Assembly: GCF_963678975.1 (NCBI RefSeq)
Contig: NC_089278.1
Span: 10,629,479-10,693,478 of the forward strand
From: Dysidea avara
Taxonomy: Eukaryota > Porifera > Demospongiae > Dictyoceratida > Dysideidae
Reading direction: 5' to 3'
DNA length: 64,000 nt
This document shows, piece after piece, positions 13,627 to 49,540 of this stretch; position 1 is the first letter of the stretch, and every line of letters begins with the position of its first letter. Position numbers and translations under genes: made by a program. A model generated the notes under the pieces. That model was not told where the DNA came from and did not search any database. It was given only the letters and a program-made list of their open reading frames with translations.

Positions 13627-13810
13627 TGAAGGAAGATTCCAAATTTTGCTTCGTCGTACCACGATGGCAATGGTCTAGCATCCAGAGACGCCCAATTTGG
13701 TTCATAATCAGCAGTCACCGTCCCAACAACTAAAAAGCATCACCAACCAACTCGCCATTATGCACCTTAGCCCTCGCCTTACCTGTCTTACACTAATCAC
13801 ACCAGCTCAA

Positions 13811-28500: not shown

Positions 28501-31500
28501 AAATGTTTCTAAGTGCAAGCACGAGCTCTTCGCTAAAAGTGTTGAATGCTTCTAGCGATGTTTCGTCGCCTTCTGCAATTCTCCTCAATAACTTCGTTGT
28601 AAATTCTCTTCACTTTGTAACCTATTAAATGAACTGCCTTCTGTTTTGTAACAGTACTCGCTAATGAAACTTCGAACAATTCCACTAGCCATGGTTATAG
28701 CTACAGTTAAGTCTTGGCCTTAGCAACAGCTTTTGTGACGTAGCCGAAACACGGATGTTTTAACGCGCAAGTTCCGTTTCCAATCACTATGTGTATAGTA
28801 TATCTATGATTAAACGAATCTATAGAAGTTTCTAATTAGCGCAAGCAGCGAAATAAACCTGCTTTGAGGCATTATTCCTGGGTTTCGCCATCTTAGAGCG
28901 CCGTATTTTAAACTATGAAACAACATACTTGTGTCTGATAAAGCTAGAGCTACTCTTATACGCTTAACTCACCATTCTTCCATAGGCTCCTGTACAAACT
29001 ACACCCCCAGTTAAAATATCACGAACGCGACGCGGAAATGTAGTGAAAGTATAGCGGATAGTATATGGCACTTGTAAGGTTTTGCGTAATTTAGGATAAG
29101 GCTGTTGATATACTTTTATGCACAAATCCACATAACTCATGTAGGCCTAAACTGTGGCTACGCACAAGCTTAAGGTCATGAACTTTGAGAAAGCTATGGT
29201 ACACAAAATCCACTAAGCCTCTAGAGATAGTAATTATCTAATCAAAAACAGCCAAGCTGTAAAAAAGGGTGCGGCCCCCCAAAAAGGCCATGGTGAAAAA
29301 AGATGTGAAATCCAAGGTGGCAGCCAAGAAATGGCTGTGATGGTAGGTTAATGGTAAAAATTTTAATAACGACAATTCAGGTGAATTTGGTGCCAAGAAC
29401 AAGTGGCACAAAATTCACCTGAATTGTCGTTATTAAAATTTTTACCATCACAGCCATTTCTTGGCCGCCACCTTGGATTTCACATCTTTTTTCACCATGG
29501 CCTTTTTGGGGGCCGCACCCTTTTTTACAGCTTGGCTGTTTTTGAATAGATATCACTTCTTTTTGTATTTGTATACTGCAAAGCCGGTCAATGGCTGGCT
29601 TTGGGTTTTTTTTAACCCATGTGTTTTTTTCTTTACCACAGGAAGAAAAGAACTTAAAGAAGATTTTAATACTTCAATAATTTTTGATTTTATTAGTAAT
29701 TATATACATACATTTATTACATGCCCATTATTCCCCACAGGATATTATTTTGCAGCTGATCTCTCTACTGGGTGACTTGAAATGTAGTTGAACTATCTAT
29801 AAGGCAGAGACAATTATAATTTTTTCCAAATCTCAGTGAAAATATCAGGCAACCTAAAGCATTATCTGACATTGATATGCTACTGTTTTACACAATTCGT
29901 CGGAAATCCTTACGTTACATTGATAGAATAGAGTGACTCAACCTATAATAATACAATCATTGTTGTCTAATTGATTGACAATGCATCACTATAAAACTCT
30001 CTAGCTTCCTTTTATTTTGATCTGACATTTTGTCAGGCAGGTTCCATTATGGTCGGCCATGCATGATATTTACCTGACAAATGGCCTATGTCAGGCAGTA
30101 ATAATTGACTCTGCTATAAGGTGACCTCTTCTAGCTAATCTCTCTACAGGGTGATTTGTTTCTAGATGAACTCTCTACAGGTGATTTGTTTGCAGCTAAA
30201 CTCTCTAAATGGTGGTTTCTTTGTAGCTGAACTCTCTACACGATGGTTTCTTTGTAGCTGAACTCTCTACAAGGTGACTTCTTCTAGCTGAACTCTCTAC
30301 AGGGTGATCTTTTTGTAGCTGAACTCTCTACAGGGTGATTTGTGTGCAGCTGAACTCTCTACATGATGGTTTCTTTGTAACTGAACACTCTGCAAGGTGA
30401 CTTCTTCTAGCTGATCTTTCTACAGGGTGATTTGTTTGCAGCTTAACTCTCTACATGATGGTTTCTTTGTAACTGAACTCTCTACAAGGTGACTTCTTCT
30501 AACTGAACTCTCTACAGGGTGATCTTTTTGCAGCTGAACTCTCTACAGGGTGATTTGTTTGCAACTGAACTCTCTACATGATGGTTTCTTTGTAGCTGAA
30601 CTCTCTACAAGGTGACCTCTTCTAGCTGAACTCTCTACAGAGTGATTTGTTTGCAGCTTAACTCTCAGAGTCTACATGATGGTTTCTTTGTAGCTGAACT
30701 CTCTACAAGGTGACTTCTTCTAGCTGAACTCTCTACAGGGTGATCTTTTTGTAGCTGAACTCTCTACAGGGTGATTTGTTTGCAGCTGAACTCTCTACAT
30801 GATGGTTTCTTTGTAGCTGAACTCTCTACAAGGTGACCTCTTCTAGCTGATCTCTCTACAGGGTGATTTGTTTCTAGCTGAACTCTCTACAGGTTATTTG
30901 TTTGCAGCTAAACTCTCTACATGGTGGTTTCGTTGTAGCTGAACTCTCTACACACGATGGTTTCTTTGTAGCTGAACTCTCTACAAGGTGACTTCTTCTA
31001 GCTGATCTCTCTACAGGGTGATTTGTTTCTAGCTGAACTCTCTACAGGTGATTTGTTTGCAGCTAAACTCTCTACATGGTGGCTTCTTTGTAGCTGAACT
31101 CTCTACATGATGGTTTCTTTGTAGCTGAACTCTCTACAAGGTAACTTCTTCTAGCTGAACCCTCTACAGGGCGATTTGTTGTAGTTGAATTCTCTACAGG
31201 GTGATTTATTTGAGGCTGAACTCTCTACATGGCAGTTTCTTTGTAACTGAACTCTCTACAAGGTGACCTCTTCTAGCTGATCTTTTTACAGGGTGAATTG
31301 TTTGTAGCTGAACTATCTACAAGGTAACTTCTTTTAGCTGATCTCTCTACAGGGTGATTTGTTTGCAGCTGAACTCTTTACAAGATGGTTTCTTTGTAGC
31401 TGAACTCTCTACAAGGTGACTTCTTCTAGCTGAACTCTCTACAGGGTGATTTCTTTGTAGCTGCACTCTCTATATGATGGTTTCTTTGTAGCTGAACTCT

Positions 31501-34500
31501 CTACAAGGTGACTTCTTCTAGCTGATCTCTCTACAGGGTGATTTGTTTCTAGCTGAACTCTCTACAGGTGATTTGTTTGCAGCTAAACTCTCTACATGGT
31601 GGCTTCTTTGTAGCTGAACTCTCTACATGATGGTTTCTTTGTAGCTGAACTCTCTACAAGGTAACTTCTTCTAGCTGAACCCTCTACAGGGCGATTTGTT
31701 GTAGTTGAATTCTCTACAGGGTGATTTATTTGAGGCTGAACTCTCTACATGGCAGTTTCTTTGTAACTGAACTCTCTACAAGGTGACCTCTTCTAGCTGA
31801 TCTTTTTACAGGGTGAATTGTTTGTAGCTGAACTATCTACAAGGTAACTTCTTTTAGCTGATCTCTCTACAGGGTGATTTGTTTGCAGCTGAACTCTTTA
31901 CAAGATGGTTTCTTTGTAGCTGAACTCTCTACAAGGTGACTTCTTCTAGCTGAACTCTCTACAGGGTGATTTCTTTGTAGCTGCACTCTCTATATGATGG
32001 TTTCTTTGTAGCTGAACTCTCTACAAGGTGACTTCTTCCCTCTACAGGGGGATTTGTTTGTAGCTGAACTCTCAACAAGTGATTTATTTGCAGCTGACCT
32101 CTTTATGTGGTGGTTTCTTTGTAGCTGAACTCACTACAAGATGACCTCTTCTCTCCAGGGTGATGTGTTTCTAGCTGAACTCTCTACTGGTGATTTGTTG
32201 CAGTTAAACTCTCTACATAGTGGTTTCTTTGTAGCTGAACTCTTTACAAGGTGACTTCTTCTAGCTGAACTCTCTACAAGGTGATTTCTTTGTAGCTGAA
32301 CTCTCTACATGATGGTTTCTTTGTAGCTGAACTCTCTACAAGGTGACCTCTTCTAGCTGATCCTTTTACAGGGCGATTTGTTTGTAGTTGAATTCTCTAC
32401 ACGGTGATTTGTTTGAGGCTGAACTCTCTACATGGCGGTTTCTTTGTAGCTGAACTCTCTACAAGGTAACTTCTTCTAGCTGATCCCTCTACAGGGCAAT
32501 TTGTTTGTAGTTGAATTCTCTACACGGTAATTTATTTGAGGCTGAACTCTCTGCATGGCGGTTTCTTTGTAGCTGAACTCTCTACAAGGTGACCTCTTCT
32601 AGCTGATCTCTTTACAGGGTGATTTGTTTTTAGCTGAACTCTCTACAGGTTATTTGTTTGCAGCTAATCTCTCTACATGGTGGTTTCTTTGTAGCTGAAC
32701 TCTCTACATGATGGTTTTTTTGTAGCTGAACTCTCTACAAGGTGATTTGTTTGCAGCTGAACTCTCTACATGATGGTTTCTTTGTAGCTGGTAACCTCTT
32801 CTAGCTGATCTCTCTACAGGGTGATTTGTTTGCAGCTGAACTCTCTACATGATGGTTTCTTTGTAGCTGAACTCTCTACAAGGTGACCTCTTCTAGCTGA
32901 TCTCTCTACAGGGTGATATTTTTGTAGCTGAACTCTCTACAGGGTGATTTGTTTGCAGCTGAACTCTCTACATGATGGTTTCTTTGTAGCTGAACTCTCT
33001 ACAAGGTGACCTCTTCTAGCTGATCTCTCTACAGGGTGATTTGTTTCTAGCTGTGTGAACTCTCTACAGGCGATATGTTTGCAGCTGAACTGTCTACATG
33101 GTGGTTTCTTTGTACCTGAACTCTCTACAAGGTGACTTGTTTCTAGCTGATCCCTCTACAAGGTGACTTCCTCTAGCTGATCTCTCTACAGGTTGATTTG
33201 TTTGTAGCTGAACTCTCTACATGGTGATTTGTTTGTAGCTGAACTCTCTACAGGATGGTTTCTTTGTTACTGAACTTTCTACAAGGCAACTTTTTTCTAG
33301 CTGATCTCTCTACAAGGTGACTTCCTCTAGCTGATCTCTCTATAGGGTGACTTGTATCTAGCTGAACCATCTACAGGATGATCTGTTCATAGTTGAACTC
33401 TCTACAGGTTAATTTGTTTGTAGCTGAAATCTCTTGTTTCAAACTGATCTCACTGTAGGATACTACTTATTTGTAGCTGAACTCTCTACAGGATGGCTTC
33501 TTTGTAGCTGAACTCTCTACAGAGTGATTTTTTTTGTAGCTGAACTGTATATAGGGTGATTTGTTTGTACCTGAACTTTCTATAGGGTGATTTGTTTATA
33601 GCTGAATGCTCTGCAGGGTGATTTGTTTGTAGTTGATCTCTCTATAGGGTTTCTTTGCAGCTGAGTTCTCTACAGGGTGACTTCTTCTAGCTGAACTCTC
33701 TCTTGTTTCTAGCTGATCTCTCTACAGAGTAACTTGTTTGTATAGCTGAACTCTTTACAGAGTAGTATTTTGGTTGCTGAACTCTCTACACGGTGACTTG
33801 TTTGTAGCAAAATTCTTTACAGAGTGACTTGTTAGTAGCTGAATTCTCTACAGAGTGACTTACTTGTAGCTGAACACTGTATAAACTATAAAGTGACTTG
33901 TCTGTAGCTGAACTCTCTTCAGGGTTACTTGTTTGCAGGTGATCTCTATAGGGTAACTTGTTTGTATAGATGAACTCTTTACAGGGTAGTTTCTTTGTAG
34001 CTGAACTCTCTCCACAGTGACTTGTTTGTAGCTGAATTCTCTAGAGAGTGTAGCTGAACTCTCTACAGGGTGCATGACTTGTTTATAGCTGAACTCTCTT
34101 CAGTGTGACTTGTAATGTTCTGAATCACTACAGCGATATATTTGTAGCTGAACTCTCTATAGGGTGACTTGCTTCTTGCTGAACTGTCTATAAGATTAAC
34201 TGTTTGCAGCTGAACTCTCTACAGAATAACCTGTAATGTAATAGAATTATATAACGGAGTAAATAAATTAGCTGAATGCTCTATTAGGGTGACTGTTCTA
34301 TTAGAGTATCTTGATCTCGCATTTGCTACACGGAGTTGGCTTTCGAATCATAACTCAGTGGTTTGTAATCCAATTCTTCTATACTACTGCAAGGACTTTC
34401 AATGAAGATTATTCCAGCTATACACCGATTTTCAGCTCATTGTTCTAAGCGGTTTGCCTAGTAGGCGTGAAAACTAATACTTTTTTATTCCTAAAAATCG

Positions 34501-37500
34501 ATCGCGTAATTGTGACACAGGTTGGGTTTTGTGTCATATCTCCGTGGTCTTTATCTCGATTCCTTTCAAACCACCAAAAGGCACTCCTACGATGGTTACT
34601 CCATCTACATAGCAATTTTCAACTCATTCCATGAAGCGGTTTACCCTGTAGGCGTGACAACAAATCGATCTTGTTTTACGCGAATAATCGGTCATAACTC
34701 CTGAATCATTCATCGGATTTGCACCAAATTTGATGCTAGGATTCGCCTTTGTACTCCCCTTCTATGTTCCAAATTTCAAGGCGATCAGAGTACGCGTTTG
34801 CGTTTTATAGCAATTTTTGCAAGTGTGCAAAAAGACGAAGAAAAAAAACGAAGAAAAAAAACGAAACTTTGGCCACTCATATCTCGGTAATGGCTTGAGT
34901 GATTTCCTTCAAAGTTGGAATGTAGACTCCCCTAGCTGGCGGGCAACTCTGTAGCAAATTTGGTTCCAATCGGATAAGGTATCACCGAGATACAAATGTG
35001 TGAAAATGACGTTTTCTTTCTTCCTGTCAATATACTCACGGTGTGGCGCGCCGGCTTCTTGGGCCGCATGACACACTATCGTGTGTCTTGATAGTAGAGA
35101 TGGTTTTAAGAACAACTGAAGGTTGGAGATTTGTTACTAGGTTGTATGTACAGTAACTGTACATAAGCTTTCTCTGGCTGTGGATATATTTGGACTGCAA
35201 TAAAAAGTAATCTAATTTAGTAATTAATTAAAGAGCCTTGGGGTGATACTGTGTATTTTCAAGGAAAGTTTATGACAAATTATGGGTCAAATGCAGGATT
35301 TGTTCTATGAGCTGGTAGTTTTAAATTTCAAACTGAAGACTCAAACAAAACTATCAATATAATAGTTCATAGTAAGGGGTGACCACTTCCATAGGTAAGC
35401 TTAATAGGGGCGGATCCAGGGGGAGTTCAAAGGGTTCCATGGAACCCTCCTTTTGAAAGAGCCTGTCTTACTCAAGATACTCTAATAGAGTAGTCAAGAT
35501 CGAAATACTCTAATAGAGCAGTCATAGTATTCTTAAGATGTAGCAAGCTACGAATGTAGTTATCAATAAGGAAATATAGTTGGTGAGGGGCAGCTATTGT
35601 CAGCAAGTGATGACCTTTTTTATTTTATTTTTTGGTCTTTGGCTTACAGCTAGGGTGAAGGAACCCCCTTTTAAAAAGTCTGGATCCACCCCTATTCAGC
35701 ACTTATTAGCTCCTGATTGAAGCAATCATGAATTAATTTACTTAATTATCTACCATTGTGCGGAGCTACTTTTCTTATCAGGTCTTTTAAATTATTAGTT
35801 CACGTGTTAATTCTACCCATGCCACAAAGACATGAAACTTAAATTTGCCATTACCTGAATATTAAAAATCGGTTTCTGCACAATTGTAGCTTATTTACTA
35901 CTGCTTTCCCATCCAAAATTCAATAGTTGTATCTTGAAAAAAACAACAAAAAAAACAGTGACTAGTTCATTTTTATATCGTGGCTTGTAATAAGAGCATG
36001 CATTAAGTGCTGTGGTGATCTGTGCTTAGCATATACAGAGGTTTTGAAGTTGCTTGATACATGACTATGTTGCGCATGTGCAGCAACTAGCCAATGAAAT
36101 TTAAGCAGCACAATTGAATTTCACAAAGAGTGAATTTCATTGGCTGTATCTGTTGCACATGCGTAATACCAGGAGAAGCTCCTGGTAATACGATCATGCC
36201 AATATTATCAAGCAACCTCAAAACCTCTGTAACATATTCATTTGCAAATTACAGAAACTGGTGGTCAACCACAGCAATGATTATAATTAAGCCTCACTAT
36301 TAATTTGATTGCTTGCACAATTGGAGACAAATCATTATACGGCTTCTGGAAATCAAGCTGTCCTGGTCACAAGCAAGGTCTTATGGACTCGCACTGCTTG
36401 CTTGCTTGAATGTACCATATATAAGGAATACAGGCTATTATCATATATAAAAGGGATATAGGCTATTATCATATATAAGGGATACAGACTATTATCATAT
36501 ATAAGGGATACAGGCTATTATCATATATAAGGGATACAGGCTATTATCATATACAAGGGATACAGACTATTATCATATATAAGGGATACAGGCTATTATC
36601 ATATATAAGGGATACAGTTTATTAACATGTACACCAAACATTACAACCAATAACCAACTAAAGTGCAATTTGATCTGCATCACTACTAATATACCTGCTG
36701 CTAATATCTATGCACAGCAAGTCACACTGTGCATTAACTTATGTCTGTCACATAGTAATTTCAGTTGTGCCTAACCCTCAAAACAAGTAGCTAAGCATAT
36801 ACTGATGTATTGTTATGGTTGCAGACTATTTGCAGTTGAGAATATAAACTGTTAGTACTGAATAACTCATCACTATCTTTGCATGCAATATAAGACTAGG
36901 GTATTGGCTTACCCTTCAATACTATCACCTAGTTAAGACAATGGTTAATCTTTCACTCTGATGATTCTCTGTAACTCAAGGTGTCTACTGTTAATCCATA
37001 CTAGATTTAGAAGTACATTTAAACTACACATGTTATGCGTATATCAATGTAATGCCCGACTACCACTAATACGGGCTGAGGGTGGGGAAAGGTCGGGGAC
37101 GGTGGGGGAATTGACCACTAAATTTCCCCGACATAGTGGGGATTTGTCTTCACTGAAGAAATTCACTCAGACAACAAAGGTGCGTGCTTTCAGTTTAGGA
37201 AGGGGTGTCTCGGGTGCTAGATACTATAGAATCCACTAGAACTAACTCATCGCTAGACCAACACCACACGACCGTACAAATCCCCCCCAGCCCCAGTATT
37301 CCCGGGGTTTGTATTACCAGTACTTCCCCAGTAGGTGGGGAATCGTAATTTTCAGTGATGCAAATCCCTAGTCTCGCACAGCCAGATCACTATTTCTCCC
37401 CACGGCGCTTATCGATTAGAGATTATAAGCGCCTGCTCGAAATAGGGTCTGGTACACTTCCAATAGGCCAGTTGTGACAGCACCTCGATTAGAATTTATA

Positions 37501-38299
37501 GGTGTTGATAATGCACCCTTAAAATTTAAATAAAAAAAGAACCAGCATGCAATAGCGAATTCTTATGTGTGCTTGTTAACGCTTTTTCGAGTGGCGTAAT
37601 CGACACCTCACATTCCTGCCGGGTGCTGTCACAACTGGCCTATTGGAAGCGTACCAGACCCTATTTCAAGCAGGCGCTTATAATCTCTAATCGATAAGCG
37701 CCGTGGGGAGAAATAGTGGTCTGGCTGCGCGAGACTAGCAAATCCCCACCTTCCCCCACCTCAGCCTGTATCAGTGGTAGTTGGGGATTACATTGATAGG
37801 TGCATTAAAAACAAGGATTAGGGATTGAGAAGGTATTGTTGGGAAGAAGGATCGTTATTTTGTAATTCTAACTGTTCTAACCGCACTTCTATACTGAGGT
37901 AAAAAAAAACAACAACATCTAGTCTGGCTGATGAGGCTACAAAAGAAACACAAAGATCACTTACTTGGCACCTGCTTCTGAAAACAGTTTCGCCCATGCA
38001 ACAGGATCAAACAATTCTGCATGGAACATTGGAGCGAACTCGGGATACGAAAATCCTGGTGGGTAGTTCTCAGTCATAAAATCCACAAATTCTTTTTCCT
38101 TTTTCCCTTGCCATCTGTCCCAGAACCACTCAGTTCCAAAGCTGGGAACACTGTACACTCCCCAGTGGAGGAAGATTCCAAATTTTGCCTCGTCGTACCA
38201 CGATGGCAATGGTCGGGCATCCAGAGACGCCCAGTTTGGTTCGTAATCAGCAGTCACTATCCCAACAACAGATAAAAATGCCACCAACCACCTCGCCAT
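16533..38299 (-). CDS. Alpha-L-fucosidase copy 3, complete nine-exon gene (GH29)
   Basis: Secreted or lysosomal hydrolase that removes alpha-L-fucose from glycoproteins and glycolipids. Minus-strand exons: 38299-37965, 22065-21959, 21906-21782, 21504-21371, 21308-21211, 21157-21025, 20252-20167, 16962-16878 and 16830-16533. All introns obey GT-AG, phases match, and the total is 1401 nt (466 residues plus stop), a normal length for animal FUCA proteins. Signal peptide about 1-17; [15 protein letters not shown] near the N-terminus; [10 protein letters not shown] at about 118-127; WSDGDW at 209-214, whose Asp (about 211) is the expected nucleophile; and C-terminal beta-sandwich strands with IKISWQDG. 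Several N-glycosylation sequons. Intron 1 is about 15.9 kb because of transposon and satellite insertion. Exon 1 is clearly diverged from copies 1 and 2, while exons 2-9 are nearly identical to copy 2. The gene diverges from the MRH gene. Confidence 0.93.
17062..17624. mobile_element. 563-bp MITE with TA duplication and known empty site
   Basis: Starts CCGTATAGTGG and ends CACTATATGG, flanked by TA. Arm A at about 5344-5348 reads straight through (GTTGTATTTGGG), giving the exact pre-insertion site. The interior has repeated 'TTCGCCAAAGTTTT' and 'GGCGAATTTGGCAAATTG' blocks facing each other. It lies in intron 7 of fucosidase copy 3. Tc1/mariner-type by its TA duplication. No ORF of significance. 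Confidence 0.8.
18180..18600. repeat. Dispersed repeat copies in fucosidase copy 3 intron 7
   Basis: Arm-B counterpart of the repeats at 5880-6330: the 'GTGTCTTCAGAGT...TTTTCTA...GCCTGCCTGCC...GGCTAAGGCTACAG' family followed by the 'CTTGTCTTTTATCTTCAGTCAGGCTGCTTG' block. Open frames here (for example 18507-18775) are repeat-derived and not conserved. Confidence 0.5.
20284..20933. mobile_element. TIR element of about 650 bp in fucosidase copy 3 intron 6
   Basis: Inverted termini TATGTGACCGTCT...GTCTAGTTTACAC and GTGCAAACTAGACGG...AGACGGTCACATA bound a segment absent from the matching intron of copy 2 (about 7575). Exact ends and target duplication are unclear because both flanks are AT-rich. 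It includes a 70-codon open frame (20370-20582) that I do not recognise. Confidence 0.65.
22583..22918. mobile_element. TIR MITE with ACTGTACTACGATTTGCGAC ends
   Basis: Left end ACTGTACTACGATTTGCGAC and right end GTCGCAGATCGTAGTACAGT are inverted copies. Repeated 'GGTCAAAG' words occur between them, along with an A-run at about 22718-22733. It sits 55 bp before the P-like transposon inside intron 1 of fucosidase copy 3. No ORF. Confidence 0.6.
23975..24375 (+). repeat. 33-bp minisatellite inside the transposase 5' region
   Basis: About a dozen tandem copies of a 33-bp unit built on CTACCATACCACCACTGCCC plus TCCAGTACAAGTG. Because 33 is divisible by three, the array stays open and encodes an 11-residue Pro/Ser/Thr-rich repeat ([10 protein letters not shown]). 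It accounts for the long open frames on both strands around 24050-24776, which should not be taken as independent genes. Confidence 0.85.
26470..26687. mobile_element. Pogo-like MITE nested in the P-like transposon
   Basis: Left end CAGTAGACCCTCAGCTATC and an inverted right end (GGATAACCGAGGATCTATC) resemble the CAG...CCTCG...TTATC termini of the pogo-type MITE at 624-841. It lies between transposase exons, so it is a nested, later insertion. The target duplication is not clear. Confidence 0.5.
27701..28692 (-). pseudogene. Second, convergent ORF of the P-like transposon (function unknown)
   Basis: Minus-strand reading frame converging on the transposase. Possible start ATG at 28692 ([14 protein letters not shown]); then [55 protein letters not shown], and near the C-terminus [16 protein letters not shown] followed by a basic tail. 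A frameshift near 28600, a stop near 28446 and a frameshift near 27926 break it. Its position inside the same TIRs suggests an accessory protein carried by the element. I recall similar proteins accompanying P-like transposases in other invertebrates, but no family name can be given from sequence alone. Confidence 0.5.
29236..29552. repeat. Long foldback palindrome at the left end of composite I
   Basis: Near-perfect inverted arms of about 150 bp: 'ACAGCCAAGCTGTAAAAAA', 'GATGTGAAATCCAAGGTGGC', 'AAATTTTAATAACGACAATT' and their complements in reverse order, around a short loop at about 29395. The right arm opens a frame (29461-29775) that is a by-product of the palindrome. Confidence 0.9.
30116..34235. 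repeat. Satellite array of 30-31-bp units (composite I)
   Basis: More than 100 copies of a unit with core TAGCTGAACTCTCTACA followed by one of a few endings (GGGTGATTTGTTTG, TGATGGTTTCTTTG, AGGTGACTTCTTC). The endings tend to follow in order, giving a higher-order period of about 92 bp. A larger block of about 519 bp is duplicated almost exactly (about 30988-31506 and 31507-32030). Divergence increases toward 33400-34235. No ORF. Confidence 0.92.
34262..35092. repeat. Conserved 3' tail of composite I
   Basis: Single-copy tail matching 47268-48098 along its length, including 'AAATTTGGTTCCAATCGGAT', 'TATACTCACGGTGTGGCGCG' and the terminal hairpin. Short open frames here (34522-34704) show no recognisable protein. 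Its conservation between two copies with very different array lengths suggests it carries sequence needed for mobility. Confidence 0.75.
35093..35405. other. Intronic sequence without recognised features
   Basis: Part of intron 1 of fucosidase copy 3 between the composite element and a MITE. No exon-like frame or repeat was recognised. Confidence 0.5.
35406..35693. mobile_element. MITE with AGGGGCGGATCCAG termini
   Basis: Begins AGGGGCGGATCCAGGGGG and ends CTGGATCCACCCCT, inverted repeats of about 14 bp. The interior contains two 'GATACTCTAATAGAG' motifs and 'TTGTCAGCAAGTGATGACC'. Related copies, partly degraded, lie at about 351-535 and 10926-11095. No ORF. Confidence 0.6.
36036..36230. mobile_element. 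Foldback MITE with CAGAGGTTTTGA ends
   Basis: Arms 'CAGAGGTTTTGAAGTTGCTTGATA' and its complement, with 'GCGCATGTGCAGCAAC', 'GCCAATGAAATT' and complements in between, form an almost complete palindrome. An extra small palindrome (CAGGAGAAGCTCCTG) sits in the right arm. Located in intron 1 of fucosidase copy 3. Confidence 0.65.
36412..36622. repeat. 26-bp minisatellite, about eight copies
   Basis: Direct tandem copies of ATAAGGGATACAGGCTATTA plus TCATAT with few substitutions. There are no unique spacers between units, so this is a simple tandem array. It lies in intron 1 of fucosidase copy 3. Confidence 0.9.
37041..37798. mobile_element. TIR element interrupted by a nested MULE-like MITE
   Basis: Ends TATCAATGTAATGCCCGACT and the inverted AGTTGGGGATTACATTGATA, continuing inward with ACCACTAATACGGGCTGAGG and GGTGGGG words. 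The 369-bp MITE at 37369-37737 is inserted inside it, separating two halves. It lies within 250 bp of fucosidase copy 3 exon 1, in intron 1. Target duplication not certain. Confidence 0.65.
37369..37737. mobile_element. MULE-like MITE, second family member (9-bp target duplication)
   Basis: Starts TAGTCTCGC and ends GCGAGACTA, flanked by the 9-bp direct repeat GCAAATCCC (37360-37368 and 37738-37746). Long inverted arms share 'GATTAGAGATTATAAGCGCC' and 'CCAATAGGCCAGTTGTGACA' with their complements. It shares terminal bases and target-duplication length, but little internal sequence, with the elements at 13069 and 53280. Confidence 0.85.
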
Positions 38300-38502
38300 C
38301 GCCCCTATCTATCAGATCCCTAGCTGTATCAGATCTATCAGTGAGCGTGATCATGTGATGTTATTGCAACAGTGTCATTAAATTTCAGGTGCCTTTTTAT
38401 AGTAGTGGCGCCCAGGCGCCAGCTTGGGAGGGCGCCGCCAGACTAGCGATGTAGTTAATGGTTGGTCTCGTGATCATGTCCTCGTGACCAGTTCTGATAA
38501 AC
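38300..38502. promoter_or_regulatory. Bidirectional promoter between fucosidase copy 3 and the MRH gene
   Basis: Only 203 bp separate the two divergent start codons (38299 minus, 38503 plus). An E-box-like TCATGTGA occurs at 38351-38358, 52 bp from the fucosidase ATG. No TATA box at a fixed place is evident. The spacing leaves no room for separate promoters of ordinary size, so shared control is likely; this is inference. Both products are expected to act in the lysosomal pathway. Confidence 0.6.
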
Positions 38503-41500
38503 ATGAAGCCACTCCCTATTTTTCTGCTGCTGGTGTCGCTTACCAGAGGCCAGATGACTTGCACTCCTGATCCTCAGCACCCATCATGCGCGTGTACTTT
38601 GGATGATGGAACGCGCATCGACCTGAGAAGTGTAGGAAATCAGGGAGGTTTACCTGCGTGAGTCATGTATAGCCTGGCGTAGCCGACTGTCATACTAACG
38701 TATAGCCTAAATCGACATAAATAGCTATAAAGAATAGGAGAAACTGAGCCGGCCAGGTACTCCCTTGACTCGTCGTGGACTCCATATCCGACTGCCATGA
38801 TATAGCTATAAATAGGCATTCCAGTATCCGAGATTTTTTATAAAAATTTCTCCATTAAGGCCACTCCAAGTCATACCTTAGTTTCTGGTCACTCCCAAGC
38901 CTACAAATGGATGCGGGCGGGCGGATGATCAGGACTTCAGGACTATAGACTCTACTGTGACAATATACTGTATGGTATTATTATTTGCTCAATTTAGCAA
39001 ATTCATGTTGATTTTGTTTTTAGTCAAACTTAACCAACAACATAAGTAGTTGTGCTTCGGCAAAAAATGCACTAGGAAAGTTGTTGATGGATCATGGCTA
39101 GCTATACACTGATGTATAGCATTTAAGCATATTTATTTATTTATATAGAATATACTATAGGAAATGTTTTGCTCATGTAGCTACTTATGCTTTCCAAGTG
39201 AAATAAATGTCGCATTAGCTATGTCAGGAAAGTATTACTATGACTTATAGCTAAGTTGTTCAAATGATCATGATCCAAAATGAAATTTAACTTCTATTTT
39301 CACATCAGAAATTCTTCATTCAAATGTGAAGTCTTAGCCCACTAGCTATGTGTTTCCAGCCTTCTATTCAGTAACCTTGATAAAAGTAACTGTCAAAGTT
39401 TTGAGTCATTGAGTGCTCCAGACTAGTGTTTTTTAGTGATCATCTGGGAATGTTTAAACTATATGGGTTTCTACTTGCCAATCTAATTTTAGTTATGGAA
39501 AAGTTTAAGTTTAAGCTCACCGAATGTTGCCGGCTTTCCATACCCCTGCAGTGTTCAGTGATAAGGAATTTGAAGTTACTAGACTAATCATTAGAGGACT
39601 ACATTTGAATTATAAAGTTAAAGCTATGGCCCATCTGCATGGACTAGTAGTTAATGCTACTGAAATTACTTTGGTTACAGAAGCATTAGTAACAGTTATA
39701 ATCTGAACAGCTATATAATCAAGGACAAAACTAGCTACAGTTAGAAACATTTTATTAGTGTGGCATATATACCTAAGTTAAGAGTAGTGTGACTGCTCTA
39801 TTGGAATCCCTGACTGCTCTATTAGAGTATCTCGATCTTTTGCAGTAAAAAATAAGTGTCTTGCTGGGTCACATGCACTTAAGCACCTGTAATATTAATA
39901 ATAGTCCTCATAAACTAGGGTTCCAGGTTTACCATGCGGGCGGGTGACCAGAAACTAAGGTTTGACTTGGTGTGGCCTAATCCGAACTCGCGTTTAACTT
40001 AGGATCGCTCTGTAATTTGAGCTCCAATGAGTTTCAAAATAGCTATTTTACACTTCCGGCCACAAGTGTGACACTCAAGGCAATGTGTAATACAATAGAA
40101 GTTTACCAACAGAGATTCGCAATTTTTTTGCTTCTAAATCAGCTGCCACACCAATTTGTTCACACTTCTGGTATGGCTCAGACTGAGACAGCATATTTCA
40201 GCACAAGTTGCTGCCAAACTTTCAGTTACAGTCACTGTAAAGTACTTTGTAGTGATAAATAAGTTAGTGTGCACATGCTGCCAGATTTGTAATGTCAAAT
40301 TCTTTTCGGATAAGTGGTGTCTATTTATTTATTGATTGATTAACAAAACCCATTGAGAGTAAAAATGCTAATGTACAGAAACAAAAATTTATTAGTGTCT
40401 GCATTAAATGATTAGCTAACTCACTGAAATAGAACAGCTCGAAACAAAGAACTGCGTTTACTTTACATTTTGCAAAATTATCCATGAATGTGTAAATTTG
40501 CCACTTCCAAGCTACATTCAGTAGTTCACAGGAGTCACAAGGGGCAAGTCACTTAAAGCTTATTCAACCAGAGTATTTAGATGCATATAAATTCAGCTTT
40601 TTTCCAAATTTCATTCAGCTATGGAACAACTTACCTGATTACATAGTCTCAACACAATCACTTCAGTTTTATGAATTAAATCTATACTCATGTATATGAG
40701 GTTTACAATTATACACAATAATCGCAAGGGCAGTTCTAGGAATTTTGTGACAGATTTCCAAATTTTCTGTTGCATGCACACTGAAATCTAGGGGGGTCTG
40801 GGCCAGGGGGCACACTTTCCTAGTGTATTTTGAGATTGAATATGGCACCAAAAGAATCTTTAAGGCTACCATTTTAAACGTATGTTAGAAATTGATTAAG
40901 CTGTTTATGTGTTCTTACGCTGGCATAGTATCAGGAGCAGGTTAAAGAACTAAGAGGTGGAGCTATGTGAAGTTTGAAGCATACAACAGATATGAATGCC
41001 ATTCTGGGGGTCTGGGGGGAATGCTTACCTACCCCCCCCCCCCCCCCCCCCTCCCAGGAAAATTTCAGGTCTTCAGTGTGAACTTTTGATACCTAATGAA
41101 TAAATCCGATCAGTTTCTAGCACCTCAGAACCCCCCCTCCCCCCAAATCACCCATTGTTATAAAGTGTGTGGTCAGTCAGACCTACAGAGCTCATACCAA
41201 GTACTACTGGAACATTTTTTTGTGAAAATGTAATGAACAGGGTATTTCACCCCCAGCTATTAAAACACTATTGAAAAGTAATCTTTAGGGTTGTTAAAAA
41301 TGGTATAAAAATCCTGTGAAATAATCTTTCATTGAATTTTCAAATTTCATGGTCATGATTTAAATTCACAAACACAAAAACGTAATTTCAGTCCTGCTTG
41401 CACGTTTTCCTTGTGCGGGTAATCAAAACTTACTATTCATTACCCTGTTCATTACATTTTCAACTCCAGTAGTGAAAAGACAGCATTAGCTAATCTCATT

Positions 41501-44500
41501 CAGTATTGCCTGCATACAGTATTTGACCTCCAAATTTGGCAACAATTTGACTAGTGATAGTTTTATACACTATAAGTGCTCACTGAACTGCTCAAGAATA
41601 GGTTAAAAGAATCTAGCAGAGAATCTAGATTAATACAAACATGTCTGGATATTAGAATCATAAATAATTTCCATAGGATCTGGAAATGTGTTGCAAGTGG
41701 TTGAGTTCCTGTATTGTTGAAACAGCTTTGCATAGATATCAAATTATAAAAGTTTAGATTGAAATAATCTAGCTAATAGTAATAGAACAGTCAACTACCC
41801 TAATAGAACAATCACATTTTGCATTATAAAAATAGTTTATACTTTATACCTGTACCAACACAGCAGGACCAGTCTAAAATTGCATCTCACAGTGTTTAAG
41901 ACCTGAAAAATATCCAGCAGCTCCCAGACCACCAGAATGGCATCCATGTCTGTTGTATGCTTCAAACTTCACTCTACCTCATAGCTTTTTACCTGCTCGT
42001 GATACTATGCCAGCAGAAAGCAGGAATATATAAGCAGCCTATATCAATCAATTCCTATAAAACATATGTTTAAAATGTCAGCTTTCTAACTCTTTTGATG
42101 AAAATTGTTACCAGATTCAATCTCAGAATACACAATTCAACAAATTTGCTGAGGGAGTGTGCCCCCTCCCAGATTTAATTATGCATGCAACAGAAATTTG
42201 GAAACCTTTCGCCAATAATTCTGGAGCTACTTTGAGAAATCACAGTTGAATATATGCCCTGACTATCAATTAATTAAGTGGCCAATTCACTTCAGTTAGT
42301 TCCAGCTATGTTCCAACAATATACAGAAGAACAGTACGAGAAGTATATCTCTGCAATCAATCCAGGAAATTAAATGGAACACAAAGGAGGACAAAGGTAG
42401 GTCAATGATACGTGAAAAGGCATGTCTCCTGCCAAAGCATCATCAAACAGTGAAGAAGTCAAGCCTGTAGCCTTATCCATAGTTGAGTTATGCTTGATTT
42501 GGAGACATCAGTCAGTCAGCAGAAATTCAGTTGAATAAAAAGTTTTATAGATTTTAAAGAAAATTATTGGAAGGGTTTGGGGATTGACATTTATAGGCTT
42601 GGTTATGCCTAATCAATACTGTCAAGCTGTTATAAGTGTAGGGATGCTGCGATTATGCCAGCATGATTTCAGGCATAATAGGTATGTGTGAATCAGGAAT
42701 CATGCTAGCATTTTGAGGAGGTTATAAAACTTTAACAGTAGGAAAATCTACAGATTGCACATTTCCGTTAATAAGATCGAGATACTCTAATAGAGCAGTC
42801 AGAAACAACTCTAATAGAACAGTCACTGAACAAAGCAGTCACATTAAAATGAAAAATGAAATATTCTAATACAACAACCAGCTAAAGAATTCAAGATTAT
42901 TTGAAGCTTATAAACATCAATGAAAATGGTCTGACACAGCAGTAAACTGGCATTATTAGTGACATAATTTTGGAAATAATGGGCAATTCTCAAAAGCATA
43001 ATAAGTGATTTTTTGAGCACTGCTCAAAAGCATAATGCTCAATTTTTGGAGCATAATAGCCTCATGCCTAGGCTGGATTTTGAATGATATTATTGGGTAA
43101 GAAAGCTCAAACCTCCATGATCCCTACTATACAATTCTACCGTACTCTATGATAAGTTTCATCATAGTGTGGGGGGATTGTAACAGTTCATTGTCATGTC
43201 ACAATCTTGCAGAACAATTTAACATTTTATAATTCTTTTTCCCTCATCACCATCCAGCTGTTCTCATACCTCAGTTTTTTTGTCAAATTTCAAAATTAGG
43301 TATTTCAATGTATGCAAAAACCAAAAATTCAAAAGTACATATATCTCAATTTTACATAATTTGTAGGTGTGAATGTCAACAATAATCTCTTCAAGTTTTA
43401 AATGGATAGCATATGTAGGTCATAAGATATGACATTTTTTAAATCCCACGATTTGTGTGATTACCGAGAAGGGGCAACTTATGCCCCTCTCATTGACAAT
43501 GTATGGAAAAATTGCAACTTCAAAATGTCATATCGCATGACTTATATATGCTATACTTTTAAAACTTGGAGAGGTGACTTAAAACATTGACACCTACAAA
43601 TAATATAAAATTTAGATTGCTAGGGGCAACAGTTGATTTTTTCATTATTATGAAATTTGTCCATTGGTAGTGGTCTTGTGCCCAGCTGGGCCCATGGTGA
43701 TAAATACTGATAATACTCAAGTTTCTTAGGCCTGGATGTACAACTAATTAGAATCACTATGTTGATGAAAAAATGTTATAAAGCTGTTTCATTAGAAGTT
43801 CTAACTCCTAGGTTTCTATTGATTGGTTACATAATCCCTCCTTTTTGCCATTCTGGTTGGATCACACTTCTGGGCCCAAGAAATCACCAGACAGTACTTG
43901 CATGTCTAGCTTGGGCCTGGTTTGGCACAAGACTTAATCGGTCAGGGTGGAGGCAGTTTTAAGTGGGGTTTTGTTACTGATTTGTCCAGATTTATGATTC
44001 TGCAAATAGGCCATGCAGAATATAAAGTCATGAGCAAAGTGTACATCAAGTGTCTTGTGCTGGGGCGTCACTGTATACCTGTGTCTCATCAACATTATTA
44101 TGTATTACCTTTATTTGTAATGCAGTATGATACCATACCACACAACTGTAGGTTTACTGTTATTGACAGTAGTTATCAATACACATACAATCCTTGTTAT
44201 TCTTTTACAAGTGGATCTTGTGAGAACGTTGCTGTGAGTTATATTTAATTTTGTACTTAGCACATGGTGCATAATATAAACTGCAGGTTTGCCAGACAGA
44301 TAGTGGTGGAACGGGACGCTCAGTTGCAGTACAAGCAGGTGTCACTTACAGTTCAGATGGCACAAATGTAGTGATGAACTATGGTGGTGGATTAGGTGAC
44401 AGGTATATTAGCTATCAAATGCATTGTGTCAAATATGTAGTTAGTGCTGACAACATAATATATAGGTCAGCAGTGGTCACATTAAAGTGTGGTACTGGAG

Positions 44501-47500
44501 GATCTACACTATCATATGATGGAGAACAGACACGTTTGGAATATGTTAGTTAGCAAATGAACATGTTAAACGGAATGCATATGATATAACCATATCCATG
44601 TCAAACAACAAAACTATGAAAAAGGATGCATGCACATGCAGTCTTCATTAAAAAGTTAAAGTTGCAAATCAAAGATGGCAGCCAAGAAATGGCTGCAAGA
44701 ATTACTATTGATAAATTGGATAAAACTATCAACCTTAACAGTATTGCAGTCTGTCAGTACACATAGAATTCTTTAAACAATTAAAGTACATGCACCAACC
44801 AATTAAGTTTTAATTTTCAAATGAAGATGATCTAGTATAAACAGTTAGACCAGCAACCACAAGAGAATCAAAGCACTAATTGAACAAGTATAAAGATATA
44901 TTGGTAGTTTAATGCTATTAACCATATCTAATCCAAAACAGCCAAGCTGTAAAAAAAGAGTGCGGCCCTGAGAAAGGCTATGGTGAAAAAAGATGTGAAA
45001 TCCAAGGTGGCGGCCAAGAAATGGCTGTGATGGTAGGTTAATGGTAAAAATTTTAATAACGACAATTCAGGTGAATTTTGTGCCAAGACCAAGCGGCACC
45101 AAATTCACCTGAATTGTTGTTATTAAAATTTTTACCATTAACCTACCATCACAGCCATTTCTTGGCCGCCACCTTGGATTTCACATCTTTTTTCACCATA
45201 GCCTTTCTCAGGGCCGCACTCTTTTTTTACAGCTTGGCTGTTTTGGATTAGATTTTCCTTCTTTTTGTATTTGTATACCCCAAAGCTGGCCTATGGCCGG
45301 CTTTAGGGATTTTTAACCTGTCATTTTTTTTCTTTACTACAGGAAAAAGAAAAGATGAAGCAGGGTGATTTCTTTGTAGCTGACCTCTCTGCAAGGTGAT
45401 CCTTCTAGCTGATCTCGACTTGTTTATAGCTGAACTCTCTACAGGGTGATTTGTTTGTAGCTGAACTCTCTACAAGGTAACTTCTTCTAGCTGATCTTTC
45501 TACAGGGTGATTTGTTTGCAGCTGAATTCTCTACAGGGCGATTTGTTTGCAGCTAAACTGCTGAACTCTCTATAATGTAACTTCTTCTAGCTGAACTCTC
45601 TATGGGTGGCTTGTTTCTAGCTGATCTCTCTACAGGGTGACTTGTTTCTAGCTGAACTCTCTACAGGGTGATTTGTTTCTAGCTGAACTCTCTACAAGGT
45701 AACTTCTTCTAGCTGATCTTTCTACAGGGTGATTTGTTTGTAGCCGAATTCTCTACAGGGCAATTTGTTTGCAGCTGAACTCTCTACATGGTAGTTTCTT
45801 TGTAGCTGAACTCTCTACAATGTGACTTCTTCTAGCTGAACTCTCTACAGGGTGACTTGTTTCTAGCTGATCTCTCTACAGTGTAACTTGTTTCTAGCTG
45901 AACTCTCTACAGGGTGATTTGTTTGTAGCTGAATTCTCTACAAGGTAACTTCTTCTAGCTGATCTTTCTACAGGGTGATTTGTTTGTAGCTGAATTCTCT
46001 ACAGGGCAATTTGTTTGCAGCTGAACTCTCTACATGGTAGTTTCTTTGTAGCTGAACTCTCTACAATGTAACTTCTTCTAGCTGAACTCTCTACAGGGTG
46101 ACTTGTTTGTAGCTGAACCCTCTACAGGGTGATTTGTTTGTAGCTGAATTCTCTACAAGGTAACTTCTTCTAGCTGATCTTTCTACAGGGTGATTTGTTT
46201 GTAGCTGAATTCTCTACAGGGCGATTTGTTTGCAGCTGAACTCTCTACATGGTAGTTTCTTTGTAGCTGAACTCTCTACAATGTAACTTCTTCTAGCTGA
46301 ACTCTCTACAGGATGACTTGTTTCTAGCTGATCTCTCTACAGGGTGATCTGTTCGTACCTGAACTCTGTACAGAGTGGTTTGTTTGCAGCTGAACTCTCT
46401 TACATGGTGGTTTCTTTGTAGCTAAACTCTCTACAAAGTGACTTCTTCTAGCTGATCTATCTACAGGATGACTTGTTTCTAACTGAACTCTTTACAGTGT
46501 GATCTGTTCATAGTGGAACTTTCTACTGGGTGGTTTGTTTGCAGCTAAACTCTTTGCATGATTGTTTCTCTGTAACTGAACTCTCTACAAGGTAACTTCT
46601 TCTAGCTGATCTCTCTACAGGATGACTTGTTTCTAACTGAACTCTCTACAGTGTGATCTGTTCATAGAGAACTTTCTACTGGGTGATTTGTTTGCAGCTA
46701 AACTCTTTGCATGATTGTTTCTTTGTAACTGAACTCTCTACAATGTGACTTCGTCTAGCTGATCTCTCTACAGGATGACTCGTTTCTAACTGAACTCTCT
46801 ACAGTGTGATCTGTTCATAGTGGAACTTTCTACTGGGTGATTTGTTTGCAAATAAACTCTTTGCATGATTGTTTCTTTGTAACTGAACTCTCTACAATGT
46901 GACTTCTTCTAGCTGATCTATCTACAGGATGACTTGTTTCTAACTGAACTCTCTATAGTGTGATCTGTTCATAGCGGAACTTTCTACTGGGTGATTTGTT
47001 TGCAGCTAAACTCTTTGCATGATTGTTTCTTTGTAACTGAACTCTCTACAAGGTAACTTCTTCTAGCTGATCTCTCTACAGGGCAATTTGTTTGTAGCTG
47101 AATTCTCTACAGGGTGATTTATTTGAGCTGAACTCTCTACATGATGGCCTCTTTGTAGCTGAACTCTCTATTAGGTACCTTCTTCTAGCTGATCTGACTA
47201 CAGGGTGACTTGTTTGTAGCTGAATTCCCTACAGAATAACTTGCAATGTAATATAACTGATACATGCAGCTGAATGCTTTATTAGGGTGACTGTTCTATT
47301 AGAGTATCTCGATCTCGCATTTGCTGCACGTAGTTGCCTTTCGAATCATAACTCAGTGATTTGTAATCCGATTCTTCTGTACTACTGCAAGAACTTTCTA
47401 TGATGATTATTCCAGCTACATACTGATTTTTAGTTCGTTGCTCTAAGCGGTTTGCCTGGTAGACACGAAAACTAATAGTTTTTTTATTCATAAAAATCGA

Positions 47501-49540
47501 TCGCGTAATTTTGACACAGGTTGGGTTTTGTGTCATATCTCCATGGTCTTTATCTCGATTCCTTTCAAACCACAAAAAGGCACTCCTACGATGGTTGCCC
47601 CATCTACATATCAATATTCAACTGATTCCTCCAAGGGGTTTACCCTGTAGGCGTGACAGACCTTCGACCTTATTTTACGCAAATAATCGGTCATAACTCC
47701 GTGAATGTTCATCGGATTCCTACCAAAGTTGGTACGAAGATCCGCCTTAATGAGCCCTTTAAGTGTGCCAAATTTCAGCCCAATCCGAGCATGCATTCGT
47801 GTTTTATGGCGAATTTTGCGAAGTGTGCAAAATGAAGATGAAGAAGAAAAAAACGAAGAAATTAAAACGAAATTTTGTTCGCTCGTATCTCGGAAATGGC
47901 TGGAGCGATTTTCTTCAAATTTGGTATGTAGACTCCCCTAACTGGACGGCACGTCTCTAGCAAATTTGGTTCCAATCGGATAAGGGATCACAGAGCTACA
48001 TAGGTGTGAAAATTGCGTTTTCTTTCTTCCTGTTAATATACTCACGGTGTGGCGCGCCGGATTCTTGGGCCGCACGAGACACTATCGTGTGTCTTGATCT
48101 ACTACTGATAATTACAGCTACATATTTATGTGTTTCAGTGTTACTGTTGTCTAGGGTCCAGGAATTATGCCAGCATAATTTTGAGCATAATGATGGGGCA
48201 AAAGAATTGGGAATTATTTCAGCAATTTAAGATTCACAATACTCTAGTAGAGTCACTAGAGCAGTCAGTGAATAAATTTTCTCTGTTGCAACAGTAACAA
48301 AGCATCTTTCCAGCTAAAAGCTATAGCTTATTTGTCTAACAGAACAGCAGTTTAACTGCTCCAAAATCTTGTTGAACATTATAAATTGCAAAGGTTGAGT
48401 TTTTGAGAAAAATTTGGGAATAATGAACACATTTTTGGAATAAGAGCATAAATGATGACTGTTTTGGAGAAATTTTGAATAGAATAATGAAAAAAAATTG
48501 AGCATAACTCCCTGGTGCCTATTGTTGTCTTCCATTTGCAGAGTTTCACACTAACCAGCCCGTGTGCCTGTCCCAATCAGTGTGGTTCAGGAAATGGAGG
48601 AGGTGGCAGTAGCGGAGGTAGTGATCCAGGAGTTGTTGGAATTGTACTTCTTTCTTTGTAAGTGGTCATAATTGTCATGTACATTTTGTGTGTGTACCTA
48701 AAATTTTACTCTCAAACTAATGAAACGGTGTATGGCAATTGTATGAATAATACAAAAAAGCAAAAAATTTGTACGCAAAGTTATCAAAATATGGAACAAA
48801 GGATGTATTGAGACAGAGACAGGGCGCTATCCACTAAGCTACTACTACTGCCAGCCATCACCACCCTTAGTTTCTACCTTATAAATGCAAGCCAATTAAG
48901 AAGCCTATGTATAAGAGAAGAACTCTAACCCTTACCTAAATGAGATATTCCTGGTATATATAAGCATATAATGATTTGATGAACTGTCTGTATAAAGGTA
49001 ATTAAGTTTATAGTCAGTCTAGGGTTGGCCCACCTTTGGCAGGGCAACATCTAAATTTACAACCATAGCTATAGAACTCATACCTATACTACTAATCATT
49101 TGTTAGTGCCATCTCCTAAGAAAAATAGTGGCTCCATAAAATTATGTATTAATGAAGGGACTACTTTTATAACATCTAAATGTGAGAGTGAGGATATGAA
49201 ATGCTGCACGTATAAATGCTTTTTTTTTTTTTTTTTTTTGTAAAATCTATGTACAGTGTGCTATAACTACCTAAAAATTATATCTTTTTGCAGGTTGTTT
49301 GTTGGTTTTGTAGTCTACTTCATAGTTGGTATGATAATAATGAAAGTGAAATTTAAAAGAACTGGATGTGATATTATTCCAAATAAGCAATTTTGGGCTT
49401 CTCTGCCTTTCCTATTAAAGGTAAATGCTGATATCAAACTACAAATATGCATGTTGGCCTTTATACAGGATGGTGTCTTATTCACAGTCTCACCATGTAT
49501 TACAGTGTACAAACAGAGTAAAGGTTATTCAAAAGTTTGA
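38503..49540 (+). CDS. MRH-domain type I membrane protein (mannose-6-phosphate-receptor-like)
   Basis: Seven exons: 38503-38657, 44152-44233, 44287-44402, 44466-44544, 48542-48657, 49294-49420 and 49469-49540. All have GT-AG borders and matching phases, giving 747 nt (248 residues). Signal peptide about 1-17; a luminal Cys-rich MRH domain with YTYNPCYSF, a CQ pair (Gln82), GDR (Arg118) and RLEYSF (Tyr144), placed like sugar-contact residues of MRH lectins; a Gly/Ser stalk; one membrane span (about 174-200, VVGIVLLSLLFVGFVVYFIV); and a cytosolic tail with IIPNKQFWASLPFLLKDG, typical of the small M6P-receptor-like/ATG27-type family. Such proteins sort cargo between Golgi and endolysosomes. Intron 1 is 5.5 kb, and intron 4 (4.0 kb) contains composite element II. 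Lectin activity on mannose 6-phosphate is not proven. Confidence 0.88.
40553..40698 (+). mobile_element. LINE reverse-transcriptase C-terminal remnant
   Basis: One open frame reads PEYLDAYKFSFFPNF followed by IQLWNNLPDYIVSTQSLQFY and a stop. This is the FFP-x-WN-LP pattern at the C-terminus of CR1/Jockey-type LINE polymerases. It is short and isolated, inside intron 1 of the MRH gene. Confidence 0.5.
40735..42235. repeat. Large inverted repeat in MRH intron 1
   Basis: The block at about 40735-41080 recurs as its reverse complement at about 41838-42235. Shared words include 'TTTCCAAATTTTCTGTTGCATGCA', 'GGCATAGTATCA', 'GTGAAGTTTGAAGCATACAACAGA' and 'AATTTCAGGTCTT'. A third copy lies at about 51405-51690 and a fragment at 8755-8870. 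The left arm contains a C-homopolymer of about 22 bases near 41032-41051. The spacer of about 760 bp has no recognised ORF. Confidence 0.65.
43360..43655. repeat. Fragment related to the 2771-3542 TIR element
   Basis: Shares 'GGTCATAAGATATGACATTTT', 'GAGAAGGGGCAAC', 'ACAATGTATGGAAAAAT' and 'TTGCTAGGGGCAAC' with the 772-bp element in duplication arm A. It lacks the full termini and is degraded. Confidence 0.6.
44926..45253. repeat. Foldback palindrome of composite II
   Basis: Inverted arms of about 155 bp, from ATCTAATCCAAAACAGCC to its complement GGCTGTTTTGGATTAGAT, nearly perfect around a loop at about 45085. The arms are better matched at their outer ends than in copy I, which suggests a younger or gene-converted copy. 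Confidence 0.88.
45357..47250. repeat. Satellite array of 30-31-bp units (composite II)
   Basis: Same TAGCTGAACTCTCTACA-based unit as the array at 30116-34235. It is dominated by other higher-order orders, including a locally amplified block of about 190 bp with 'GATCTGTTCATAG' and 'TTTGCATGATTGTTTCT' endings (about 46480-47050). No ORF. Confidence 0.9.
48099..48541. other. Remainder of MRH intron 4
   Basis: Intronic sequence between the composite element and exon 5; it includes one 'ACTCTAGTAGAGTCACTAGAG' variant of the dispersed motif. No exon was recognised. Confidence 0.5.
49218..49239. repeat. Poly-T tract in MRH intron 5
   Basis: A run of about 20 T residues shortly upstream of the exon 6 acceptor; possibly the tail of a retro-inserted sequence on the minus strand. 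Confidence 0.6.

Follow-up and report, generated by a model that had tools for sequence, protein, structure and literature searches.

In the sponge Dysidea avara, an alpha-L-fucosidase gene (fucosidase A) and a gene for an MRH/ATG27-like membrane protein (MRH1) lie back to back on opposite strands, and we find that the two are best read as an ordinary compact divergent gene pair, an explanation to which we give a probability of roughly three in four. Sister fucosidases in the same genome are found back to back with different partners, which suggests an incidental pairing and does not point to a dedicated enzyme-plus-carrier unit. The window, i.e. the whole stretch of 64,000 nucleotides that was analysed (G000:C7:10629479-10693478), belongs to a 550.8-Mb genome of 108 contigs, and the pairing was judged by comparisons inside the D. 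avara genome. A single coding match to a silicatein-like motif with one loose position (CGATYAF) occurs in this genome, which would fit a sponge without proving it. The features on which the argument rests are collected in Table 1.

Table 1. Features of the divergent gene pair and of the neighbouring fucosidase copies (positions within the window)
Feature	Position	Strand	Description
Alpha-L-fucosidase gene A (GH29)	16533..38299	-	9 exons, 468 aa, intact, frame-consistent splice joins
Fucosidase A exons 1-5	38299-37965, 22065-21959, 21906-21776, 21504-21371, 21308-21211	-	
Fucosidase A exons 6-9	21157-21025, 20252-20167, 16962-16878, 16830-16533	-	
MRH/ATG27-like membrane protein gene (MRH1)	38503..49540	+	7 exons, 248 aa, intact, frame-consistent splice joins
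MRH1 exons 1-4	38503-38657, 44152-44233, 44287-44402, 44466-44544	+	
MRH1 exons 5-7	48542-48657, 49294-49420, 49469-49540	+	
Intergenic region between start codons	38300..38502	.	GC 0.49 (window 0.38), CpG obs/exp 0.75 (window 0.38)
E-box TCATGTGA	38351..38358	.	-59 of fucosidase ATG, -152 of MRH ATG
TATA-like TATAAA toward fucosidase	38396..38401	-	consensus match, putative function
GC-rich stretch with three GGCGCC, MRH side	38407..38436	.	not seen in copies B and C (alignment by eye)
Tandem fucosidase copy B	4827..13758	-	E-box TCACGTGA at -60
Tandem fucosidase copy C, exon 1	2307..2639	-	E-box TCATGTGA at -62; later exons past left edge, in L043

Two intact genes in a tight divergent layout

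Both gene models are conceptual splicings. They bear out the original prediction of an intact fucosidase and an intact MRH gene on opposite strands, 203 bp apart: the start codons lie at 38299 (-) and 38503 (+), leaving 203 bp (38300-38502) between genes of nine and seven exons, respectively. We took as divergent any pair on opposite strands with 5' ends within 1 kb, and measured from ATG to ATG this pair falls well inside that distance. Because the 203 bp run from start codon to start codon, the promoter within them is putative. The interval first named for the pair (37965-44233) spans just exon 1 of the fucosidase and exons 1-2 of MRH1.

Fucosidase A reads from the ATG at 38299 to a stop at 16533, with GT/AG junctions and consistent phases throughout, and has a first intron of 15.9 kb. 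Its product scores 448.8 bits with PF01120 and 78 bits with PF16757, i.e. GH29 plus the C-terminal domain, and the best solved match is tissue alpha-L-fucosidase (FUCA1; 7pls, E 1.3e-173), aligned over residues 18-448. The gene has everything that we asked of a FUCA1-like enzyme (GH29 and fucosidase C-terminal domains, full length, open frame), and these matches support its assignment as a predicted lysosomal-type hydrolase. It differs from FUCA1 in belonging to a family of at least 13 paralogues, some of which stand in tandem.

In the MRH1 model, two candidate exon boundaries were rejected. A start of exon 2 at 44126 is out of frame, and the paralogue at locus L029 (MRH2) puts the acceptor before 44152; a last exon at 50756 was replaced by the one at 49469 on the basis of the paralogue and of frame.

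An ATG27-like protein with the residues of a sugar-binding site

By eye, MRH1 has a signal-like start and a single luminal domain, spans the membrane once, and ends in a short tail. Among its Pfam matches ATG27 (PF09451) ranks first (60 bits against a cut-off of 27, the same score as with our earlier model), Man-6-P_recep (PF02157) comes second and is barely over its cut-off (26.2 against 25.4 bits), and PRKCSH_1 falls under its cut-off. As a query on its own, in the earlier 257-aa model, MRH1 matched none of the solved MRH structures at E <0.25, while a two-row profile of MRH1 and MRH2 gave a chain of CI-MPR (6z30) as its best solved match, a weak one at E 0.0047. In the 6z30 alignment, Gln, Arg, Glu, and Tyr of CI-MPR are matched by Q82, R118, E138, and Y144 of MRH1, the Arg-Glu and Glu-Tyr spacings are equal in the two proteins, and all four residues are invariant in MRH2. 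We take Gln, Arg, Glu, and Tyr to be the sugar-binding set of M6P receptors, including CD-MPR. For domain 9, a figure legend gives the residues as Gln, Arg, Glu, and (as printed) Arg (PMC7481795).

The C-terminal ends read GYSKV in MRH1 and GYSNF in MRH2, which at the level of sequence are tyrosine motifs of the YSAV type. According to the accessible part of one report, yeast Atg27 carries the sorting motif YSAV at its C-terminal end and depends on both YSAV and AP-3 to localise to the vacuole (PMC8008256). Since ATG27 stands far above Man-6-P_recep in Pfam and the tail reads YSKV, ATG27-like is the better name for MRH1. Judged from these features, "MRH protein" is also right, and "M6P-receptor-like", the term used in the original prediction of a small receptor-like protein, applies only broadly: the MRH domain, the one span, and the four sugar-site residues speak for it, while the Pfam ranking speaks against it.

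The genome also holds a GNPTAB-like gene, found as two exons at C3:20.854 Mb that, when joined, match 7s6n at E 1.5e-46. GNPTAB catalyses the first step of M6P tagging, and the presence of these exons makes an M6P pathway plausible. Combined with the four sugar-site residues of MRH1, they make cargo recognition possible in principle.

The intergenic region

When the 203 bp were searched against the whole genome, the window's own copy was the single match. The E-box that was predicted between the genes is there, as CATGTG at 38352, and a second CANNTG site (CAGGTG) lies at 38386. At the window's own rate, ~1.08 CANNTG sites are expected per 203 bp, so that the count of plain E-boxes in the region is not above chance, and we rejected plain CANNTG as evidence. 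The longer TCATGTGA is above chance, as the probability of finding one of the three 8-mers TCACGTGA, TCACATGA, and TCATGTGA in 203 bp is ~0.03. With respect to the CLEAR motif GTCACGTGAC, the region contains TCATGTGA, and has neither CACGTG nor the full 10-mer.

Other fucosidase and MRH loci have different neighbours

Of the 13 fucosidase start regions that we read, three lie in the window and the other ten in loci L030-L038; two copies on C13 (L039, ~24% identity) and a partial exon-1 match (C9:20715282-20715386) were left out of this set. Five of the 13 starts are tightly divergent, i.e. within ~205 bp of another gene, and these amount to three independent arrangements, which is a small sample. 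Fucosidase A is the sole member of the 13 with an MRH partner. At L030, a fucosidase faces a second fucosidase (one pair, two genes), with ATGs at 5741 and 5910 and about 168 bp between them. At L035 and L036, which are duplicates of each other, a fucosidase faces an integrin-alpha-like gene at about 131 and 135 bp, the integrin-alpha-like start in L035 being an assumed Met. The integrin-alpha identification is modest, because it comes from the first two exons, which read as an integrin alpha N-terminus with integrin alpha-5 as best solved match (E 0.0087), and because Pfam FG-GAP stayed under its cut-off; a single exon gave no solved match.

Among the remaining starts, those of B, C, L031, and L033 each come after another fucosidase in tandem. 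Copy B itself is probably not intact, since in alignments its exon 1 reads as interrupted and its signal-peptide frame as shifted. At L032, L034, and L037, no recognisable close divergent gene was seen by eye among open frames >=70 aa (L038 was left out of this reading). The neighbours of these three loci and of L035 and L036 were all read in this way, by which short exons could be missed.

The MRH side gives a similar picture. At least 17 MRH loci with a transmembrane exon occur in the genome (2 on C7 and 15 on C6), as counted in a search that used an earlier 257-aa model with a wrong exon-2 start. Only 1 of the 17, the window's own, is near a fucosidase match, and the others are megabases off. 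The closest paralogue of MRH1, MRH2 (68% identical), has its upstream neighbour on the same strand (by eye) and a CACGTG at -30, and the upstream sequences of MRH1 and MRH2 aligned no better than shuffles.

These comparisons do not support one part of the original prediction, namely that the arrangement is there for the joint expression of an enzyme and its receptor: other tight divergent fucosidases face different partners. Nor does an enzyme-receptor pairing recur among paralogues, given that the four other tight divergent fucosidases differ in this respect and that the MRH loci contribute a single case. What stands of the proposed pair of lysosomal hydrolase and sorting machinery is the tight divergent layout and a cargo recognition that is possible in principle; the dedicated unit finds no support.

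The E-box recurs upstream of other fucosidases

The distance of the E-box from the fucosidase ATG is nearly constant in the window (A, -59; B, -60; C, -62), and copies B and C have no MRH neighbour. We take the E-box to be, most probably, an element that belongs to the fucosidase. Apart from the E-box, the sequence upstream of A scored no higher against that of B or C than shuffled sequence did, and we therefore limit this claim to a matching E-box at a matching distance.

Across the genome, one of the three 8-mers, a set that was picked after the promoters had been viewed, lies <=134 bp upstream of the ATG in 8 of the 13 fucosidase genes. The background amounts to 36 occurrences in 261,641 bp of fetched sequence, or ~0.041 per 300 bp. 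When related or motif-sharing copies are counted once, the 8-mer is present in 4 of 7 groups; this grouping is our own, and joins the two L030 genes by their common motif although they are unpaired in the tree. Specifically, a tree of first exons from 12 of the 13 genes (without copy B) pairs A with C, L033 with L034, L035 with L036, and L037 with L038, and it sets L037 and L038, which are without the motif, next to A and C (89/90).

Among I29-type cathepsins, the 8-mer occurs in 2 of 9 stretches read (from 18 matches), each stretch being the 300 bp ahead of the I29 match rather than of a located ATG. Because 2 of 9 is too few, we claim no lysosomal network from the cathepsin promoters. The 8-mers presumably suit MiT/TFE factors. 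The available portion of one study reports homologues of MiT/TFE in sponges and gives the CLEAR sequence as GTCACGTGAC (PMC7815692). Our own profile search with PF11851 for MiT/TFE returned no match in any genome, control genomes included, and so carries no information on the family here.

Weighing the explanations

Under the ordinary divergent pair that we favour, the fucosidase at the end of the array brings its own E-box element ~60 bp upstream of its ATG, just as B and C do, and the MRH gene would be a chance neighbour of the array end, encoding a protein of ATG27-like/CD-MPR-like type with a single span and one MRH domain on the luminal side. The partner of the fucosidase is exchangeable, with other copies equally close to a second fucosidase or to an integrin-alpha-like gene. 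Transcription probably leaves the 203 bp in both directions, and some co-expression may follow. With YSKV as a possible sorting signal of the tyrosine type, MRH1 would probably be a sorting protein of general glycan-binding function that cycles among Golgi, endosome, and lysosome, and not a dedicated carrier of fucosidase. Some points run against this explanation: it is suggestive, at face value, that 203 bp are common to two genes of the lysosomal system, the rate of tight divergent pairs in this genome was gauged from the fucosidase genes, an old fucosidase-MRH linkage conserved among animals is conceivable, and the closest non-tandem relatives, L037 and L038, are without the E-box. The adjacency of two lysosomal-system genes is nonetheless weak evidence, because the same enzyme family has other partners in the same layout and in the same genome. 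A stricter form of the ordinary pair would have two abutting one-way promoters without co-regulation, the TATA-like element and the E-box acting for the fucosidase and the GC-rich stretch for MRH1. The minus-strand TATAAA (38401-38396) does stand apart from the GC-rich block (38407-38436), and the E-box keeps a distance also found in B and C, but the elements are consensus matches, and 203 bp less two 5' UTRs would leave little room for insulated promoters; we regard this form as possible, if doubtful.

Compatible with the ordinary pair, too, is membership of both genes in a MiT/TFE (CLEAR-like) lysosomal programme, in which E-boxes of separate histories were acquired and one E-box serves both genes here. 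This is rather unlikely in our assessment, even though the 8-mers, with their presumed fit to such factors, reach 8 of 13 fucosidase promoters (against ~0.04 per 300 bp) and 2 of 9 cathepsin-type (I29) stretches, and MRH2 has its CACGTG at -30. The sponge MiT/TFE homologues described in the part of the source at hand (PMC7815692) point the same way. Against these stand the post hoc choice of the 8-mer set, the lysosomal type of all the promoter sets read, the 5 of 13 fucosidases without an 8-mer (including L037 and L038, which the tree groups with A and C), and the generality of E-boxes in sponge promoters, as the consulted section of another report has it (PMC4773876). Finally, selection may have kept a shared bidirectional promoter, from which the MRH protein would be made to bind mannose-6-phosphate on the fucosidase and carry the enzyme to lysosomes. 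The exact 203-bp spacing of two intact genes would suit this, as would the match of Q82, R118, E138, and Y144 to CI-MPR and their retention in MRH2, the GNPTAB-like exons, and the YSKV-type tail. We nevertheless hold it to be very improbable, as fucosidases of the same short divergent layout face other partners, and no further transmembrane-type MRH locus (at least 17 found) sits beside a fucosidase. A receptor would, moreover, serve many hydrolases, so that tying it to one fucosidase among at least 13 would have little dosage logic. A dedicated hydrolase-receptor unit is thus not supported, and the ordinary compact pair remains our preferred explanation.

Comparison with known systems and implications

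Fungal Atg27 (PF09451) is like MRH1 in its top Pfam match, in one span as read by eye, and in its YSx-hydrophobic end; for the Atg27-type role in autophagy and Atg9 traffic, the likeness of MRH1 is one of sequence. CD-MPR (PF02157) shares with MRH1 a single MRH domain, one span, and the four sugar-site residues (taken here to be the same in CD-MPR), and is set apart by the Pfam score of MRH1, only just over the cut-off.

A precedent for the layout is the GALNS-TRAPPC2L pair, where a lysosomal hydrolase gene likewise stands head-to-head with another gene, TRAPPC2L being a gene of membrane traffic. As far as the accessible text of the source goes, this bidirectional pair is modulated by estradiol in human cells (PMC8895820). 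Its genes are unrelated to the fucosidase/MRH pair, and no common origin is implied.

Among sponges, the portion of the Amphimedon queenslandica study at our disposal counts 18,054 head-to-head genes (45%), with starts within 1 kb in 11,379 of 40,122, and finds the G-box type E-box four times commoner in head-to-head promoters of <1 kb (PMC4773876). The pair described here resembles these in having opposite strands and less than 1 kb between genes, with a local rise in GC and CpG and an E-box. By contrast, the Amphimedon genome is far more compact than that of Dysidea, where introns reach up to 15.9 kb, and the distance given here is based on ATGs. Titles and abstract openings of the literature on hydrolase-receptor head-to-head pairs and on sponge fucosidase expansion held nothing on this arrangement.

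A more far-reaching set of ideas would make fucosidase promoters portable bidirectional modules with a MiT/TFE-type E-box, the fucosidase/ATG27-like pair a lineage-specific co-regulated hydrolase-plus-lectin unit, and the ATG27-like MRH protein a glycan-dependent lysosomal sorting receptor that links fungal Atg27 with animal M6P receptors; to this we assign the slightest chance of all. Were the pair indeed a conserved unit, it would exemplify an enzyme and its carrier expressed together through a single promoter. MRH1, an animal protein of ATG27-like type, has all the MRH sugar-site residues and a YSx-hydrophobic tail, and is a useful candidate for asking whether an ancestral sorting role is common to Atg27 and the M6P receptors.

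Fucosidase genes and the proposed shared promoter

In L030, a stretch fetched from elsewhere in the genome, about 168 bp separates two head-to-head fucosidase genes, with a single TCACGTGA within the gap. TCACGTGA also sits between a fucosidase and an opposing integrin-alpha-like gene (a modest identification, from two exons) in both duplicated copies of that arrangement, L035 and L036. Within the window, the tandem fucosidase copy B is probably a pseudogene, because its exon 1 is broken by about 560 bp and the frame of its signal-peptide part is shifted.

Near the MRH gene starts, the closest paralogue, MRH2, carries CACGTG 30 bp upstream of its ATG. In the window gene, CTCGTG lies at 38481-38486, which is about 22 bp before the ATG. 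The introns flanking the promoter on both sides hold minisatellites built from one common 31-bp unit. Putative DNA transposase remnants of the P-element/THAP9 kind were recognized by eye in fucosidase intron 1 (window 25300-28720, minus strand).

Coordinates of the features discussed
Feature	Location	Strand
Fucosidase copy B, disrupted 5' part	window 12858-13758	minus
Integrin-alpha-like gene opposite fucosidase, head-to-head	L035 4800-5948; L036 4800-6380	
Fucosidase/fucosidase head-to-head pair	L030 5741-5910	
CACGTG upstream of MRH2	L029 4381-4386	minus
Minisatellites, TAGCTGAACTCTCTACAGGGTGATTTGTTTG type	window 30132-34224; 45420-47234	
GNPTAB-like exons	contig C3:20854028-20854371	
Long open frames with MRH-like repeats, examples	L046 453-1904, 6916-8376; L047 4483-5952	plus, plus; minus

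M6P tag and MRH-like families

The GNPTAB-like exons are plausible evidence that the animal makes the M6P tag. A genome search also placed at least 14 more MRH/ATG27-like transmembrane loci in an array on contig C6 (35.2-36.2 Mb), partly covered by L040-L042, L045, and L048.

Numerous long open frames with repeated MRH-like units occur on contigs C12 (8.89-9.95, 17.1-17.96, and 24.14 Mb) and C13 (14.68 Mb). Often about 480 aa long and apparently intronless, they came up in the genome search with the MRH protein, to which they show about 25-37% identity, and a Pfam scan of two such frames returned no matches. Judged from sequence, these frames apparently form a large family, which merits a closer look.
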